Assembly (NCBI GenBank): GCA_021730945.1
Contig: JAKFYH010000042.1
Coordinates: 62,001-126,000 of the forward strand
DNA from: Acidobacteriota bacterium
Lineage (GTDB): Bacteria; Acidobacteriota; Vicinamibacteria; Vicinamibacterales; UBA2999
Direction of reading: 5' to 3'
DNA: 64,000 bases
Below, one piece after another: positions 4,805 through 62,288 of the stretch. Within the stretch, counting starts at the first letter, position 1; every line of letters starts with the position of its first letter. The notes under the pieces were generated by a model. That model worked only from the letters and a program-made list of their open reading frames with translations. It made no database searches and was not told where the DNA came from. The translations under genes were made by a program, and so were the position numbers.

Positions 4805-4810
4805 ATCCTA
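4805..4810 (-). promoter_or_regulatory. -10 element TAGGAT, leaderless type
   Basis: Reads TAGGAT on the minus strand, with six bases before the ATG at 4798. This spacing places the predicted transcription start at the start codon. Confidence 0.5.
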
Positions 4811-4870: not shown

Positions 4871-5108
4871 CAGAGCCACCGATGACACGGAAATCAACCT
4901 CAGGGCCACAGATGCCGCAGATTGCGCAGAATTAAAGAAGGAAAGCCCAATGCTCAGGTCCCTACGAAAAGTCCTTGTTTCTGTGTTATCTGCGTCATCT
5001 GCGGCCCTGGTGATCTCTGCGTCATCTGCGGCCCTGGTGATCTCTGCGTCATCTGTGGCCCTGGTGATCTCTGCGTCATCCATGGCCCTGCCGATATCGG
5101 CGTCATCA
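4871..5108. repeat. CAGATGACGCAGAT-type repeat in inverted arrangement (family B, copy 1)
   Basis: Two parts. In 4871-4935 the words GGGCCACAGATG and CCGCAGATTGCGCAGA read in one orientation. In 4984-5105 about four tandem 27-bp units read the complementary way (CTCTGCGTCATCTGCGG then CCCTGGTGAT). The 27-bp period equals nine codons, and the array lies in frame at the start of the TolB-like gene. The two parts can pair around the ribosome binding site and start codon at 4950. Confidence 0.85.
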
Positions 5109-6176
5109 GCGTCCTCTGGGTCACAATCGGCGTTGTCTGAGTCGACGTTCCTGAGCCGCGTGCGCCGGCTGACGGTGGACGGCAAGCGCGCGGGCGAGGG
5201 CTACTGGTCGCCCGACGGCAAGCGCCTGGTGTTCCAGAGCGAGCGCGACCCGGCCAACCCGTTCTACCAGATCTTCGTGCTCGACTTCGCCACCGGCGAC
5301 ACCAAGCGCATCTCGCCTGGCGTCGGCAAGACCACCTGCGCGTTTTTTCGCCCGGGCAGCAGCGAGATCATGTTCGGCTCGACCCACCTCGATCCGAAGT
5401 CGAAGCAGTACCAGGACGAGGAACTCGCGTTTCGCGCCTCGGGCAAGGAGCGGCGCTACGCCTGGGACTACGACCCGGAAATGGATATCTTCGCCGTCGA
5501 CGAAAAGACCGGCACCACGAAGCGGCTGACCACGGCCAGGGGCTACGACGCCGAGGGCGGTTACTCACCCGACGGCCAGTGGATTGTGTTCTCGTCGATG
5601 CGCGATGCCTATAACCGCACGCTCTCGGCGGCGGAGCAGAAGCAGCTCGAACTCGACGCGTCGTACTTCGCCGAGGTCTACATCATGAAGGCCGATGGCA
5701 GCGGCCAGACCCGCCTCACCGACTGGCCGGGCTACGACGGCGGCACCTTCTTCACCAAGGACGGCAAGATTGTCTGGCGTCACTTCGAGGAGAACGGGCT
5801 GGTCGCCAACGTCTGGACGATGAACCCGGATGGCAGCGACAAGAAGCAGCTCACCGATTTCGGCGCCATGAGCTGGGCGCCTTACGAACATCCTTCGGGT
5901 GAGTACTTCGTGTTTGCGTCGAACAAGCTGGGCTTCGAGAACTTCGAAGTGTTCATGGTGGACAAGGCCGGCGCCAAGGAACCGGTGCGCATCACCTACA
6001 CCGCCGGCTTCGACGGTTTGCCGGTGCCGTCGCCGGATGGCACCCAGATGGCGTTCACCTCGGCCCGCGGCGGTGGCGCCGGGTCGGCCGGTCAAATCTA
6101 CCTGGCGCAGTGGAATCACGAGGCCGCCATGGCGGCGCTCAAGGCGGCAGGTCCGCGTCAGACTCCGAAACGTTAG
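4950..6176 (+). CDS. TolB-like WD40/PD40 beta-propeller secreted protein
   Basis: 408 residues. The AAGGAAAG ribosome binding site sits just upstream of the ATG. Residues 1-60 form an export-like hydrophobic stretch made mostly of a nine-residue repeat (ISASSAALV and variants) encoded by the 27-bp DNA repeat. From about residue 70 there are six PD40/TolB-type blades, recognisable by GYWSPDGKRLVF, GGYSPDGQWIVF, MKADGSGQTRLT, MNPDGSDKKQLT and PSPDGTQMAFTS. Such propellers usually act in the periplasm as binding modules. There is no catalytic domain. It is followed closely by an M28 peptidase and may be co-transcribed with it. Confidence 0.88.
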   Translation: MLRSLRKVLVSVLSASSAALVISASSAALVISASSVALVISASSMALPISASSASSGSQSALSESTFLSRVRRLTVDGKRAGEGYWSPDGKRLVFQSERDPANPFYQIFVLDFATGDTKRISPGVGKTTCAFFRPGSSEIMFGSTHLDPKSKQYQDEELAFRASGKERRYAWDYDPEMDIFAVDEKTGTTKRLTTARGYDAEGGYSPDGQWIVFSSMRDAYNRTLSAAEQKQLELDASYFAEVYIMKADGSGQTRLTDWPGYDGGTFFTKDGKIVWRHFEENGLVANVWTMNPDGSDKKQLTDFGAMSWAPYEHPSGEYFVFASNKLGFENFEVFMVDKAGAKEPVRITYTAGFDGLPVPSPDGTQMAFTSARGGGAGSAGQIYLAQWNHEAAMAALKAAGPRQTPKR

Positions 6177-11344: not shown

Positions 11345-11359
11345 GGGTACGCCATTGTA

Positions 11360-11365
11360 TAGAAT
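11360..11365 (+). promoter_or_regulatory. -10 element TAGAAT, leaderless type
   Basis: TAGAAT lies six bases before the GTG start at 11372, inside the 27-bp gap of a divergent gene pair, leaving no room for a Shine-Dalgarno leader. Confidence 0.55.
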
Positions 11366-11371
11366 CGATCC

Positions 11372-13285
11372 GTGATCGCGCCGAACGCGGCGGAAGTCCT
11401 CAACCTCGTCGGCTTTGTCACCGGCACGGCGCTCTACGCCATGTTGCTGGCGCTGGTGCTGCGGGGCGGACTCGACCCACCCCAGGGCTCGCCGGCACAC
11501 CACCGCAACCTGCTGCCGCTGGCGACCGGCGTGCTCGGCCTGGTCTGGAATCTCGGCGAACTGGCCGCCTATGCCCTGCCGCGCCTGGGTTACTTCAACG
11601 AATCGATCGGGCTGTGGGCGATGTCGTTTCCCGCCCTGGGCCTGCTGGCGGCGGTGGTGGTGCATTCGGTCGCCCGCGCGCTGCCGCGCGGCATTGTCAT
11701 CACCGTGATCGCCTATGGCTGCAGCATCGTGGCGTCGGTGCTGCACCTGCAGACGGTGGTGACCGGCGATCCCGGCCCTTCGTCTCTGGCGTTCCTGATC
11801 CTGACGGTGTGTTACGGCCTGATCATCCTGGCGCTCGGCGTGCTGACCCGGGCACAGGCCAACGGCCAGCGAGTGCTGTGGGTGCTCGCCCTCGCGCTGT
11901 TCGCGGTGTCGGCCTCGCACCTGGGCCGCTTCCATGCCAGCGCCGATGGCTGGGCGGTGGAGTTGATCGGGCATCACGCGGCCATTCCACTGGCCTTCGC
12001 CATCCTCTATCAGGACTACCGATTCGCGCTGGCTGACCTGTTCCTGAAACGGGCACTGACGTTGATCGCGCTCGTGACGATCGCGTTTGCCGGCTACAGC
12101 CTGGCGAGCACGCTGCCCTCGGGACCTTTCGCGGCCAGCATCCTGATGGCGCTCTGGGTGGCCACCTCGCTGCTGTCACCCTGGCTCAATCGCCGCATTG
12201 TCCGCTTCGTCGATCAGTCGCTGCTCGGTCGCGCCGATTACGCGGCGCTTGGCGCCGCCATCGGCCACGACGTGCAGTCGCGAAACAGCATCGACGGCGT
12301 GCTCGACACGGTCGCGGCGCGGCTGGCCCCGGCGCTCGATGCCCGCCGGGTGTGGTGGGTCGATGAGGTCGCGGCGGGGACGGCGATGCCCACCACCACT
12401 CACGCGGTGGTGCGGACCACCGATGCGCCCCGGTATGTCGTCCACGTGGGCGAGTTGACCGGCGGCCGCCGGCTGCTGTCCGACGACCTGGCCCTGGTGG
12501 AGGCGGTGGTGGCGACGGCGGCCCGGCGCATCGACCAGATCCGGCTGACCCACGAACGCTATGAAGTGCAGCTGCGCGAAGAAGAGATGCAGAAGCTGAC
12601 CGCCGAGGCCGAACTGAAGGCGCTGCGCGCGCAGGTCAATCCGCACTTCCTCTTCAACGCGCTTACCACCATCGGCTACCTGATCGAATCGGCGCCGCCG
12701 CGGGCCATGAATACGCTGATGCAACTGACGGCGCTGCTGCGCGGAGTCCTGCGCTCGGAAGGTGAGTTCACGACGCTTGGACGCGAGATCGAGCTGGTGG
12801 AACACTACCTGAAGATCGAGCACGAGCGGTTCGAGGAGCGGCTGCGCGTCCGCATCGACGTGCCGCAGGCGTTGCGGCACTTGCGCATTCCGGCGCTGGT
12901 GGTGCAGCCGCTGGTGGAGAACGCGATCAAGCACGGTGTCGCGCCGAGCACGGGCGGCGGCGACGTCGAAGTGACGGCGACGCGCGAGGGCGCCCCCGGC
13001 GGCGAGCGCCTGCACGTGGCCGTCCGCAACACCGGCGCGCCGTTGCAATTGCGCGGGCCGCACGCCTTCGGCGCACCCGCCGGCGGGCAGGGGGCCAACG
13101 TGGGTGTCGACAACGTGAGGCGGCGTCTCACCGGCCATTACGGCGCCGACGCCACGCTGACCCTCGTGACCGAACCCGGCCGAGGCACCCTGGCCGAACT
13201 CGTGATGCCGCTCGTGGAGACGGTTGGAATCGACCAGGAGGATCCCGATGCCCCAGCCCTTGCGGGTCGTGCTGGCCGACGATGA
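11372..13285 (+). CDS. LytS-type membrane sensor histidine kinase
   Basis: 637 residues. About seven hydrophobic segments between residues 10 and 270 form the sensor. A coiled linker follows, then a His_kinase domain of the LytS/YehU family with the phospho-acceptor in NPHFLFN near residue 425. The HATPase domain has NAIKHG near 517 and the G-box in GVDNVRRRL. The regulator gene overlaps its 3' end by 38 bp, so the two form a cognate pair. The signal is unknown. It is predicted to autophosphorylate and hand the phosphate to Asp57 of the partner. Confidence 0.93.
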   Translation: MIAPNAAEVLNLVGFVTGTALYAMLLALVLRGGLDPPQGSPAHHRNLLPLATGVLGLVWNLGELAAYALPRLGYFNESIGLWAMSFPALGLLAAVVVHSVARALPRGIVITVIAYGCSIVASVLHLQTVVTGDPGPSSLAFLILTVCYGLIILALGVLTRAQANGQRVLWVLALALFAVSASHLGRFHASADGWAVELIGHHAAIPLAFAILYQDYRFALADLFLKRALTLIALVTIAFAGYSLASTLPSGPFAASILMALWVATSLLSPWLNRRIVRFVDQSLLGRADYAALGAAIGHDVQSRNSIDGVLDTVAARLAPALDARRVWWVDEVAAGTAMPTTTHAVVRTTDAPRYVVHVGELTGGRRLLSDDLALVEAVVATAARRIDQIRLTHERYEVQLREEEMQKLTAEAELKALRAQVNPHFLFNALTTIGYLIESAPPRAMNTLMQLTALLRGVLRSEGEFTTLGREIELVEHYLKIEHERFEERLRVRIDVPQALRHLRIPALVVQPLVENAIKHGVAPSTGGGDVEVTATREGAPGGERLHVAVRNTGAPLQLRGPHAFGAPAGGQGANVGVDNVRRRLTGHYGADATLTLVTEPGRGTLAELVMPLVETVGIDQEDPDAPALAGRAGRR

Positions 13286-24842: not shown

Positions 24843-24848
24843 AGCTTA
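24843..24848 (-). promoter_or_regulatory. -10 element TAAGCT, leaderless type
   Basis: TAAGCT on the minus strand, with seven bases to the GTG at 24835. The match to TANNNT is adequate, the consensus weak. Confidence 0.4.
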
Positions 24849-25140: not shown

Positions 25141-25165
25141 TCAGGTGCTCAGGTGCTCGGGTGCT
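25139..25165. repeat. GGTGCTC repeat (family A, copy 2)
   Basis: About three and a half copies of GGTGCTCA/GGTGCTCGG sit between the response-regulator remnant and the OsmC promoter. The repeat marks the truncation point. Confidence 0.8.
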
Positions 25166-25170
25166 ACATT
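25165..25170 (+). promoter_or_regulatory. -10 element TACATT, leaderless type
   Basis: TACATT lies six bases before the GTG at 25177. The last base of the family A repeat is the first T of this hexamer. Confidence 0.45.
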
Positions 25171-26553: not shown

Positions 26554-26559
26554 AGATTA
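26554..26559 (-). promoter_or_regulatory. -10 element TAATCT, leaderless type
   Basis: TAATCT on the minus strand with exactly six bases before the GTG at 26547. Confidence 0.45.
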
Positions 26560-26661: not shown

Positions 26662-27048
26662 CTAGTGGGGCAGCGTGTAGAGCGAGACCAGTTTGAGCCG
26701 CTCCATCCGTTCGAAATCCTTATCGAGCGACCATACCAGACCGCCGATCTCGGCGGCCATCGCCGCAATCAGCAAGTCGACCAGCCCGAAGCACTCGCCG
26801 GCGTCGTTGGCCTGCTCGATCCAGCCCGGAATGGGTCGCCAGGTCTCGGCGGTCGGATGCAGTTGCGGCAAAGCGCCATAGACCCTGCGAAACGCGGCAC
26901 GATTCACCCGCGCCGTGCCGGCCAGCAACTCGAGCCGAACCGGTAGAGCCAGCGCCACTTCATCCGCCTCGATCAACTCGCGGAGGGCGCCGGCGACGGC
27001 CCGCTGCCGAGGGGCGGCGAGCCACACCGAGGTGTCAACGACGATCAT
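26662..27048 (-). CDS. vapC: VapC-type PIN-domain toxin
   Basis: 128 residues, the typical PIN length. Metal-binding acidic residues are recognisable: Asp5 in VVDTSVW, Glu in RLELLAGTAR, Asp in GLVDLLIAAMA and Asp in SLDKDFERM. The family cuts specific RNAs, often tRNA or rRNA. It overlaps the antitoxin gene upstream by 14 bp, the usual antitoxin-first arrangement. Confidence 0.92.
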   Translation of the reverse strand: MIVVDTSVWLAAPRQRAVAGALRELIEADEVALALPVRLELLAGTARVNRAAFRRVYGALPQLHPTAETWRPIPGWIEQANDAGECFGLVDLLIAAMAAEIGGLVWSLDKDFERMERLKLVSLYTLPH

Positions 27049-27262
27049 GCGCCTGCTGCATGCGCAGCCGATCCTTCTTCCGAATCTCTCGCGGATCGTC
27101 GGTGAACTTCATCGTCGTGATGAAGTCCTTCAGTTCGTCCTTCTGCTTCCTGCGGATCACTTCCCGCAGCGCGAACACCACGGTGTCGGTCTTTGATTTG
27201 AAGCCGATGGCGGCGCGCGCTTCGTCGACCAGGCCGTCGGGCAGGTCCAGGGTGGTTCGCAT
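27035..27262 (-). CDS. vapB: VapB-type antitoxin
   Basis: 75 residues. The N-terminal ribbon-helix-helix-like segment (MRTTLDLPDGLVDEARAAIG, then KTDTVVFALREVIRR) resembles VapB antitoxins of the DUF2191 type. The charged C-terminal tail (DDPREIRKKDRLRMQ) should wrap the toxin. The start codon lies inside the palindrome CATACAAA-N8-TTTGTATG, which is a good candidate autoregulatory operator. Confidence 0.9.
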   Translation of the reverse strand: MRTTLDLPDGLVDEARAAIGFKSKTDTVVFALREVIRRKQKDELKDFITTMKFTDDPREIRKKDRLRMQQAHDRR

Positions 27263-27283
27263 ACAAAAATCTTAATTTGTATG
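27260..27283. promoter_or_regulatory. VapBC operator/promoter palindrome
   Basis: CATACAAA (27260-27267) and TTTGTATG (27276-27283) form a perfect 8-bp inverted repeat with an 8-bp spacer. The vapB ATG is the outer end of one arm. TAAGAT on the minus strand (27274-27269) ends six bases before that ATG, so the operator covers -10, predicted start site and start codon together. Confidence 0.75.
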
Positions 27284-29419: not shown

Positions 29420-29442
29420 AACCTCTCGATTGTAGCTTGTCG

Positions 29443-29516
29443 GGGATCAGGGATCAGGGATCAGGGATCAGGGATCAGGGATCAGGGATCAGGGATCAGG
29501 GATCAGGGATCAGGGA
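29443..29516. repeat. GGGATCA heptamer tandem repeat (family D)
   Basis: About 10.5 perfect copies of GGGATCA with period 7. It fills the space between the two divergent promoters TACAAT (minus, 29434-29429) and TACAAT (plus, 29518-29523), including where -35 elements would lie. Confidence 0.95.
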
Positions 29517-29517
29517 A

Positions 29518-29523
29518 TACAAT
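29518..29523 (+). promoter_or_regulatory. -10 element TACAAT, leaderless type
   Basis: TACAAT seven bases before the ATG at 29531, immediately after the heptamer repeat. Confidence 0.5.
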
Positions 29524-34352: not shown

Positions 34353-35380
34353 TTTGCGACGCGCACGTGCATTTCTTTTCGCCCGGGTTCTTCGCGGCGC
34401 TCAAGGCCGACCGCGCGGCCGTCGCGGCACTCGGCATGGATTTTCCGGAGTCGATCGAGGCGCTGGCCGATCGCTGGGTGGCAGCTCTCGACGCCAACGG
34501 CGTCTCGCAGACGGCGCTGATGGCCAGCGTGCCAGACGACGCTGATTCGGTGGCCGCCGCCGTGGCGCGACATCCGTCGCGCTTCGTCGGCTTCTTCATG
34601 CTCGACCCGACCCGCGACGATGCCCTCGATTATGCGACGCGGGCCCTCGATGCCGGGCTGCGCACCATCTGCCTGTTCCCGGCGATGCATCGCTACGCGC
34701 TTCACGACGATCGCGTCACCCGCATCTTTGATCTGGCGGCCTCCTATGCGGCGCGAAACGCCGCCCCTACGAGCGCCGAAGGCGCGAGCCCTACGAGCGA
34801 AGCGAGCCCTACGAGCGAAGCGAGCCCTACGAGCGAAGCGAGCCCTACGAGCGAAGCGAGCCCTACGAGCGAAGCGAGCCCTACGAGCGAAGCGAGCCCC
34901 ACGCCCACCGCAGGTGGGCGCCCCAGCATCTTCGTGCACTGCGGCATCCTCTCAGTCGGCATCCGCAAGAAGCTGGGGCTGCCAAGCCCGTTCGACATCC
35001 GGTTCGGCAACCCGCTCGACCTGCACGGCGTGGCGCTGAGATTTCCGAACCTCAACATCATCGTTCCCCACTTCGGCGCCGGCCTGCTTCGCGAGGCGCT
35101 GATGGTCGCCAGCCTCTGCCCCAACGTCGTGCTCGACACCTCGAGCTCCAACTCGTGGATCAAGCAGACGCCCGGCCTCACGCTGGAGCAGGTCTTCCGC
35201 ACCGCCCTCGACGTGGTCGGTCCCGGCAGGCTGCTATTTGGCACCGACTCGTCGTTCTTCCCGCGTGGCTGGAACCGCGAGGTCTACGAGCGGCAGCGGG
35301 CGGCACTCACCACCCTGCAGCTGCAGGCGGCAGACCAGGCACAGATCTTCGCGGGCAACTTCGCGCGGCTGTTTGGGTAG
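34349..35380 (+). CDS. amidohydrolase-2 family metal-dependent hydrolase with repeat-encoded insertion
   Basis: 343 residues from the ATG at 34349. Metal-site residues of the TIM-barrel family are present: DAHVHFF at 4-10, FVHCGILS, IVPHFGAG and FGTDSSFF. Typical reactions are hydrolysis or decarboxylation of small aromatic or acyl substrates. Residues of about 134-190 are a low-complexity insertion made of SPTSEA repeated six times plus flanking variants, coded by family C DNA repeats. It lies between a barrel helix and the strand leading to VHCG, so in a surface loop. Translation is coupled to the MATE gene. Confidence 0.88.
   Translation: MICDAHVHFFSPGFFAALKADRAAVAALGMDFPESIEALADRWVAALDANGVSQTALMASVPDDADSVAAAVARHPSRFVGFFMLDPTRDDALDYATRALDAGLRTICLFPAMHRYALHDDRVTRIFDLAASYAARNAAPTSAEGASPTSEASPTSEASPTSEASPTSEASPTSEASPTSEASPTPTAGGRPSIFVHCGILSVGIRKKLGLPSPFDIRFGNPLDLHGVALRFPNLNIIVPHFGAGLLREALMVASLCPNVVLDTSSSNSWIKQTPGLTLEQVFRTALDVVGPGRLLFGTDSSFFPRGWNREVYERQRAALTTLQLQAADQAQIFAGNFARLFG
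34748..34920. repeat. hairpin repeat array with variable stems (family C, copy 3)
   Basis: Six perfect tandem copies of TACGAGCGAAGCGAGCCC (34792-34899) are flanked by variants with other stems: GCGGCG-CGAAA-CGCCGC (34748-34764), GCGCC-GAA-GGCGC (34773-34785) and CGCCCACC-GCA-GGTGGGCG (34902-34920). All stems are perfectly complementary. The whole array is in frame within the amidohydrolase gene. Confidence 0.93.
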
Positions 35381-36954: not shown

Positions 36955-36960
36955 TACAAT
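36955..36960 (+). promoter_or_regulatory. -10 element TACAAT, near-leaderless
   Basis: TACAAT eight bases before the ATG at 36969. Confidence 0.5.
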
Positions 36961-52296: not shown

Positions 52297-52302
52297 AGTA
52301 TA
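52297..52302 (-). promoter_or_regulatory. -10 element TATACT, leaderless type
   Basis: TATACT on the minus strand with exactly six bases to the ATG at 52290. The paired divergent gene at 52363 has the same spacing. Confidence 0.6.
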
Positions 52303-52350: not shown

Positions 52351-52356
52351 TAGAAT
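52351..52356 (+). promoter_or_regulatory. -10 element TAGAAT, leaderless type
   Basis: TAGAAT with six bases to the ATG at 52363. TTGACG lies 20 bases upstream, a poor -35 spacing. Confidence 0.6.
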
Positions 52357-54664: not shown

Positions 54665-54670
54665 TAAAGT
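54665..54670 (+). promoter_or_regulatory. -10 element TAAAGT, leaderless type
   Basis: TAAAGT seven bases before the GTG at 54678, which is followed directly by the ATG at 54681. Confidence 0.45.
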
Positions 54671-59920: not shown

Positions 59921-59926
59921 ACTCTA
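59921..59926 (-). promoter_or_regulatory. -10 element TAGAGT, leaderless type
   Basis: TAGAGT on the minus strand, six bases before the ATG at 59914. Confidence 0.45.
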
Positions 59927-62216: not shown

Positions 62217-62222
62217 AGTATA
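62217..62222 (-). promoter_or_regulatory. -10 element TATACT, leaderless type
   Basis: TATACT on the minus strand, six bases before the ATG at 62210. This probably drives the AOR operon. Confidence 0.6.
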
Positions 62223-62282: not shown

Positions 62283-62288
62283 TAGAAT
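62283..62288 (+). promoter_or_regulatory. -10 element TAGAAT, leaderless type
   Basis: TAGAAT seven bases before the ATG at 62296. Confidence 0.55.

Follow-up and report, generated by a model that had tools for sequence, protein, structure and literature searches.

Predicted -10 elements set against start codons point to leaderless or nearly leaderless messages for about one gene in seven of an acidobacterial genome

Hexamers of the form TANNNT stand directly before the start codons of a substantial group of genes in the acidobacterial genome studied here, and very probably they are -10 elements of housekeeping-sigma promoters set against the coding sequence. According to the mechanism we propose, a -10 element (TAnAAT) would be placed directly against the open reading frame and RNA polymerase would initiate about 7 nt past it, so that the 5' end of the mRNA would coincide with the start codon or lie a few bases from it, and ribosomes would initiate on the 5'-terminal AUG or GUG without a Shine-Dalgarno (SD) sequence. 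This architecture would serve roughly 13% of genes, the rest using leadered, partly SD-led initiation. From sequence we infer both steps, the RNA start beside the hexamer and leaderless translation.

The window, that is the whole stretch of 64,000 nucleotides analysed, had been described in a first-pass annotation as containing fourteen such start/hexamer pairs, and all fourteen hexamers were read directly in the sequence at the claimed spacing. Nine genes have a spacer of 6 nt between hexamer and start, four have 7 nt, and one (36969) has 8 nt. Two further good cases, 11344(-) and 29419(-), both with a conserved TACAAT at -15, had been missed and are included below (window coordinates).

TAGGAT, 4805..4810, reverse strand: 6 nt before ATG 4798; PQQ/BamB-like repeat protein, 4798-3533
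TACAAT, candidate -10 element, 11354..11359, reverse strand: at -15 of 11344(-); 2-oxoacid dehydrogenase E1, blind start 11344, end 8852
TAGAAT, candidate -10 element, 11360..11365, forward strand: 6 nt before GTG 11372; LytS/YehU-type sensor histidine kinase, 11372-13285, Pfam His_kinase
TAAGCT, 24843..24848, reverse strand: 7 nt before GTG 24835; Pfam Beta-lactamase2 family, 24835-23936; kept in 3/3 relatives
TACATT, 25165..25170, forward strand: 6 nt before GTG 25177; OsmC-like; the weakest case
TAATCT, 26554..26559, reverse strand: 6 nt before GTG 26547; DUF4440 protein
TAAGAT, 27269..27274, reverse strand: 6 nt before ATG 27262; Pfam VapB_antitoxin; TTGACA 18 nt upstream of the hexamer
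TACAAT, 29429..29434, reverse strand: at -15 of ATG 29419(-), gene 29419-27383; identical hexamer in three relatives (G003, G005, G006)
TACAAT, 29518..29523, forward strand: 7 nt before ATG 29531; M28 peptidase; kept in three relatives
TACAAT, 36955..36960, forward strand: 8 nt before ATG 36969; blind start 36981, four codons later
TATACT, 52297..52302, reverse strand: 6 nt before ATG 52290; DUF2721
TAGAAT, 52351..52356, forward strand: 6 nt before ATG 52363; zinc-binding alcohol dehydrogenase family
TAAAGT, 54665..54670, forward strand: 7 nt before GTG 54678; VWA-domain protein; blind start 54702
TAGAGT, 59921..59926, reverse strand: 6 nt before ATG 59914; molybdopterin-binding oxidoreductase; blind start 59881
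TATACT, 62217..62222, reverse strand: 6 nt before ATG 62210; aldehyde ferredoxin oxidoreductase
TAGAAT, 62283..62288, forward strand: 7 nt before ATG 62296; gamma-glutamyltranspeptidase

A start caller blind to upstream sequence matched ten of the fourteen listed starts exactly and placed the other four (24835, 36969, 54678 and 59914) 4-11 codons away. Pfam families were matched by 13 of the 14 open reading frames, the search giving no match for 36969. With 14 of about 52 genes linked to the motif, the window is richer than the genome average.

Several repeats and a possible toxin-antitoxin partner were also seen in the window. In the VapB gene region (26662-27262), TAAGAT beside the start is accompanied by a consensus-like TTGACA -35, and the 128-aa ORF that follows the VapB gene (27048-26662) may be its toxin partner. 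The gap between the divergent genes 29419(-) and 29531(+) is filled by a perfect tandem array of the 7-bp unit GGGATCA (10.6 copies, 29443-29516), which lies directly upstream of both divergent candidate -10 elements; relatives have similar arrays of other 7-bp units, and arrays of 6-9 bp units are present in other intergenic regions too. An 18-bp tandem repeat (6.7 copies, 99% identity, 34784-34903) lies within a predicted gene.

The host is an Acidobacteriota metagenome-assembled genome (MAG), its ribosomal protein S4 being 85% and 77% identical to those of two Acidobacteria MAGs and no more than 66% identical to the other hits listed. At the genome scale, the positional histogram proposed with the first-pass annotation was run with motif-blind starts on 840,923 bases (18%) of the same genome, taken as stretches with 697 called genes, and gave a sharp TANNNT peak at -12 before first genes in these 840 kb. 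Genes were called with a home-made caller. Among 365 likely first genes TANNNT occurred at -12 in 31, against 2.9 expected per position (z=15), and of all 64 XYNNNZ patterns over all positions tested TANNNT at -12 ranked first. In divergent genes (n=216) the counts at -15, -14, -13, -12 and -11 were 10, 10, 15, 24 and 7 over an upstream background of 2.3 per position, whereas genes at most 25 nt behind a same-strand gene (n=218) had none at -12; their peak was one of SD sequences, between -9 and -12. Measured as excess over decoy offsets, the signal reached 27.4% in divergent genes, 12.6% and 15.0% in same-strand genes with larger gaps, and -0.2% in operon-internal genes; it is thus confined to the first genes of transcription units. 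Processed through the same pipeline, 200 kb of Deinococcus deserti plasmid 1, the positive control, gave a -12 peak (9/101 first genes, background 0.6), and 200 kb of E. coli, the negative control, gave none (0/92 first genes, background 2.2).

From these data about 90 of 663 genes (13.5%), or about 21% of likely first genes, are estimated to have the motif, a figure that depends on the home-made caller and leaves out degenerate -10 elements, so that genes with a start-adjacent -10 may be commoner. The large leaderless fraction suggested initially can therefore be restated as a substantial share that is not dominant.

The spacing of the motif bears on how exactly the message would begin at the start codon. 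Besides 42 motifs at -12, there were 33, 19 and 16 at -13, -14 and -15, and orthologues of a single gene range over -12 to -15, as would be expected if the messages had a short leader instead of starting exactly on the start codon. As a general account this is possible, and on balance doubtful, given that the mode is -12, the spacing expected with a transcription start site (TSS) at the start codon, and that the enrichment restricted to ATG and GTG fits a codon located at the 5' end or very close to it. Codons 12-14 nt after the start of TANNNT were ATG in 51 cases and GTG in 32, compared with 12-13 and 1-4 for the decoys, and neither TTG nor CTG was enriched at this distance (5 and 7 versus 4-5 and 10-11); enrichment of only ATG and GTG would follow from the requirement of leaderless initiation for those codons. 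Because the spacing is loose (-11 to -15) and drifts between orthologues, part of the messages probably have a leader of 1-4 nt, and the predicted message start is best described as lying no more than about 4 nt from the start codon, without always coinciding with it.

This drift is evident when orthologues are compared. In five genus relatives TANNNT was kept between -16 and -10 in 23 of 24 orthologue pairs, with identity further upstream mostly 0.25-0.5; a background control, in which 7/7 distant TANNNT were kept, was set aside as too small and possibly made up of real promoters. The hexamer of 11372 is retained in seven relatives of the genus and family as TAGAAT or TAAGAT at about -12, in flanks that have diverged and are otherwise mostly unrelated, and five relatives have TACAAT or TATAAT as the element of 11344(-), at -12 to -15. 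For 4798, one relative (G005) has TAGAAT at -12, and in another (G004) TAGGAT stands before an ATG that is shifted. One listed case, 25177, did not hold up in this comparison, the motif being absent from the equivalent place in both G005 and G006 and the case thus left without orthologue support; for 26547 the compared stretches of the relatives contained no orthologue.

The serS gene offers a clean test, since its N-terminus (M-L/I/F-D) is nearly invariant. Of 25 genomes of the order, 15 by our own count have TANNNT at -12 to -16 of serS; among the others, two have it at -20 to -22 and two (G005 and G001) about 44 nt upstream. Given that the spacing varies between orthologues (-12 to -15 for 11344, -12 to -22 for serS), exact leaderlessness is apparently not enforced at every gene.

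The composition of the motif is that of a promoter element. Alignment of 121 motif-linked genes on the hexamer, of which chance would account for about a quarter, gave the consensus TAnAAT, with A favoured at hexamer positions 4 and 5 (0.49 and 0.57) as in TATAAT, and a slight preference for G at -2, reminiscent of an extended -10. No -35 consensus emerged from these 121 genes as a group; individual genes can have one, such as the VapB promoter with TTGACA and an 18-nt spacer. The missing -35 consensus and the near-fixed distance to the start codon would suit a signal acting in translation or regulation, such as a site bound by a repressor or contacted by the ribosome, but such a non-promoter role is very unlikely: the hexamer fits the -10 consensus, operon-internal genes lack it, it forms symmetric overlapping pairs at divergent genes, and in Deinococcus mutation has shown the same motif to be a -10 element (PMC12340547). 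It is extremely improbable that the peak is an artefact of intergenic DNA, commonly higher in A+T than coding DNA, or of starts chosen with the motif in view, as those of the first-pass annotation were, because it persists with motif-blind starts and is lacking for other AT-rich patterns, decoy offsets and nearby out-of-frame ATG/GTG; in a smaller sample, TANNNT stood at -12 of 26/485 in-frame ATG/GTG near called starts and of 1/281 out-of-frame ones. An origin in AT-richness or start picking was ruled out by these decoy controls.

Use of SD sequences complements the reading of the hexamers as start-adjacent -10 elements. Motif-linked genes had no SD above control (9/86 versus 12 in a shifted control), in agreement with the initial observation that SD sequences appear instead at genes lacking the signal. 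That observation was also borne out for operon-internal genes (83/218 versus 31 in the control), while one of its examples, gene 4950, has a doubtful start, because orthologue similarity begins only at codon 30 or later and because a tandem repeat lies inside the 5' part of the gene (27-bp unit, 4.8 copies, 4989-5119; blind start 5160). To read the anti-SD we looked for the 16S gene, but this MAG yielded no rRNA. The positional peak, the consensus, the ATG/GTG specificity, the SD absence, the first-gene restriction and the conservation can all be read directly from the DNA.

Some divergent gene pairs have candidate elements on both sides. In 5 of 108 divergent pairs both motifs are present with 21-27 bp between the start codons, the TSSs being predicted only. 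Two of these have overlapping elements of the form TANNNTA (galU/serS, TAGAATA; L012 23159/23181, TAGTATA), and in two others a TA is shared by both elements (ANNNTANNNT; C1 17866/17888 and L018 37124/37147). In the window pair 11344(-)/11372(+), encoding the E1 dehydrogenase and the histidine kinase, the 27-bp intergenic region contains elements that abut exactly (11354-11359 on the reverse and 11360-11365 on the forward strand), an arrangement also found in G003; its distance of 28 bp is slightly past the 25-bp limit of the bidirectional-promoter definition (TSSs 7-25 bp apart). The start codons of the divergent galU/serS pair (L008 14341-14363, on contig C2 of the same genome) are separated by 21 bp, and the pair has a symmetric TTAGAATA element; the 21-bp gap is common to G000, G003 and G007, and most relatives retain the divergent order, the gap ranging from 19 to 180 bp.

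By our own reasoning, the TANNNTA-overlap and shared-TA geometries match the 18- and 23-bp classes of bidirectional promoters (PMC10268837, PMC12825309). We therefore raise, tentatively and as a real possibility, that some divergent pairs (about 5% of the sample, for example galU/serS and 11344/11372) are each served by one bidirectional promoter, with both messages leaderless or nearly so. Overlapping or abutting -10 elements would then feed both start codons and the whole intergenic region would be a single promoter; if so, binding of polymerase for one gene would exclude its binding for the other, providing a built-in switch between the two genes. Judged by titles and abstracts, a full-text literature search of limited coverage returned no bacterial paper on the combination of bidirectional and leaderless transcription.

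The start-adjacent signal extends beyond this genome. We scanned 197 acidobacterial genomes for TANNATN6ATG against the spacing control TANNATN16ATG, chosen because a reversed pattern makes a poor control, TA and AT dinucleotide frequencies being different. In a hand-picked subset, the N6/N16 ratios were 2.9 for the genome itself, 2.0-2.3 in the genus, 3.0-4.7 in the family and 1.4-4.7 in the order; they were high in families f18, f61, f69 and f43 and about 1 or below in f22, f33 and f41. A sample of G020 had a weak signal (5% of first genes) and prominent SD sequences. The leaderless-type signal is a feature of the phylum, with losses or dilution, and not peculiar to this genome.

Standard prediction of start sites relies on SD sequences; for this lineage, little studied and largely uncultured, TANNNT offers a usable start-site signal, and it brings a second initiation mode into the annotation, for roughly one gene in seven. 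Since the spacing-specific enrichment is strong in some acidobacterial families and absent in others, the phylum could serve to study gain and loss of leaderless initiation; at serS, tight and distant -10 positions are already seen among close relatives.

Several known systems resemble what is described here. In mycobacteria, leaderless transcripts need ATG or GTG at the leaderless position, TTG and CTG being ineffective (PMC4633059), and our sequence data show this codon restriction as well. In Deinococcus-Thermus, leaderless genes likewise have TANNNT beside the ORF, and our pipeline recovers the same peak in D. deserti; that phylum is a different one, and the spacing in our genome is looser (-11 to -15). 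Bidirectional promoters, as described by Warman, Grainger and colleagues, have pseudo-symmetric overlapping -10 elements with preferred TSS distances of 18, 10 and 23 bp (PMC12825309, PMC10268837), whereas both predicted TSSs here are at or near start codons with 21-27 bp between them. The SD share reported for Vicinamibacteria, 41% (PMC10783764), is consistent with mixed initiation usage. The closest parallel is with the TA-led genes of Zheng et al. (2011), which are defined by TANNNT some 12 bp before the start and were found in 3/3 acidobacterial genomes, at 9.7-19.4% of genes with a mean of 13.3% (PMC3160421). Motif and position are the same, and our share (about 13.5%) equals their 13.3%, so that the arrangement is already known in kind, including in this phylum; our genome is a MAG and is unlikely to be among their three. 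To their description the present analysis adds the specificity for start codons, the conservation among orthologues and spacing controls across the phylum.
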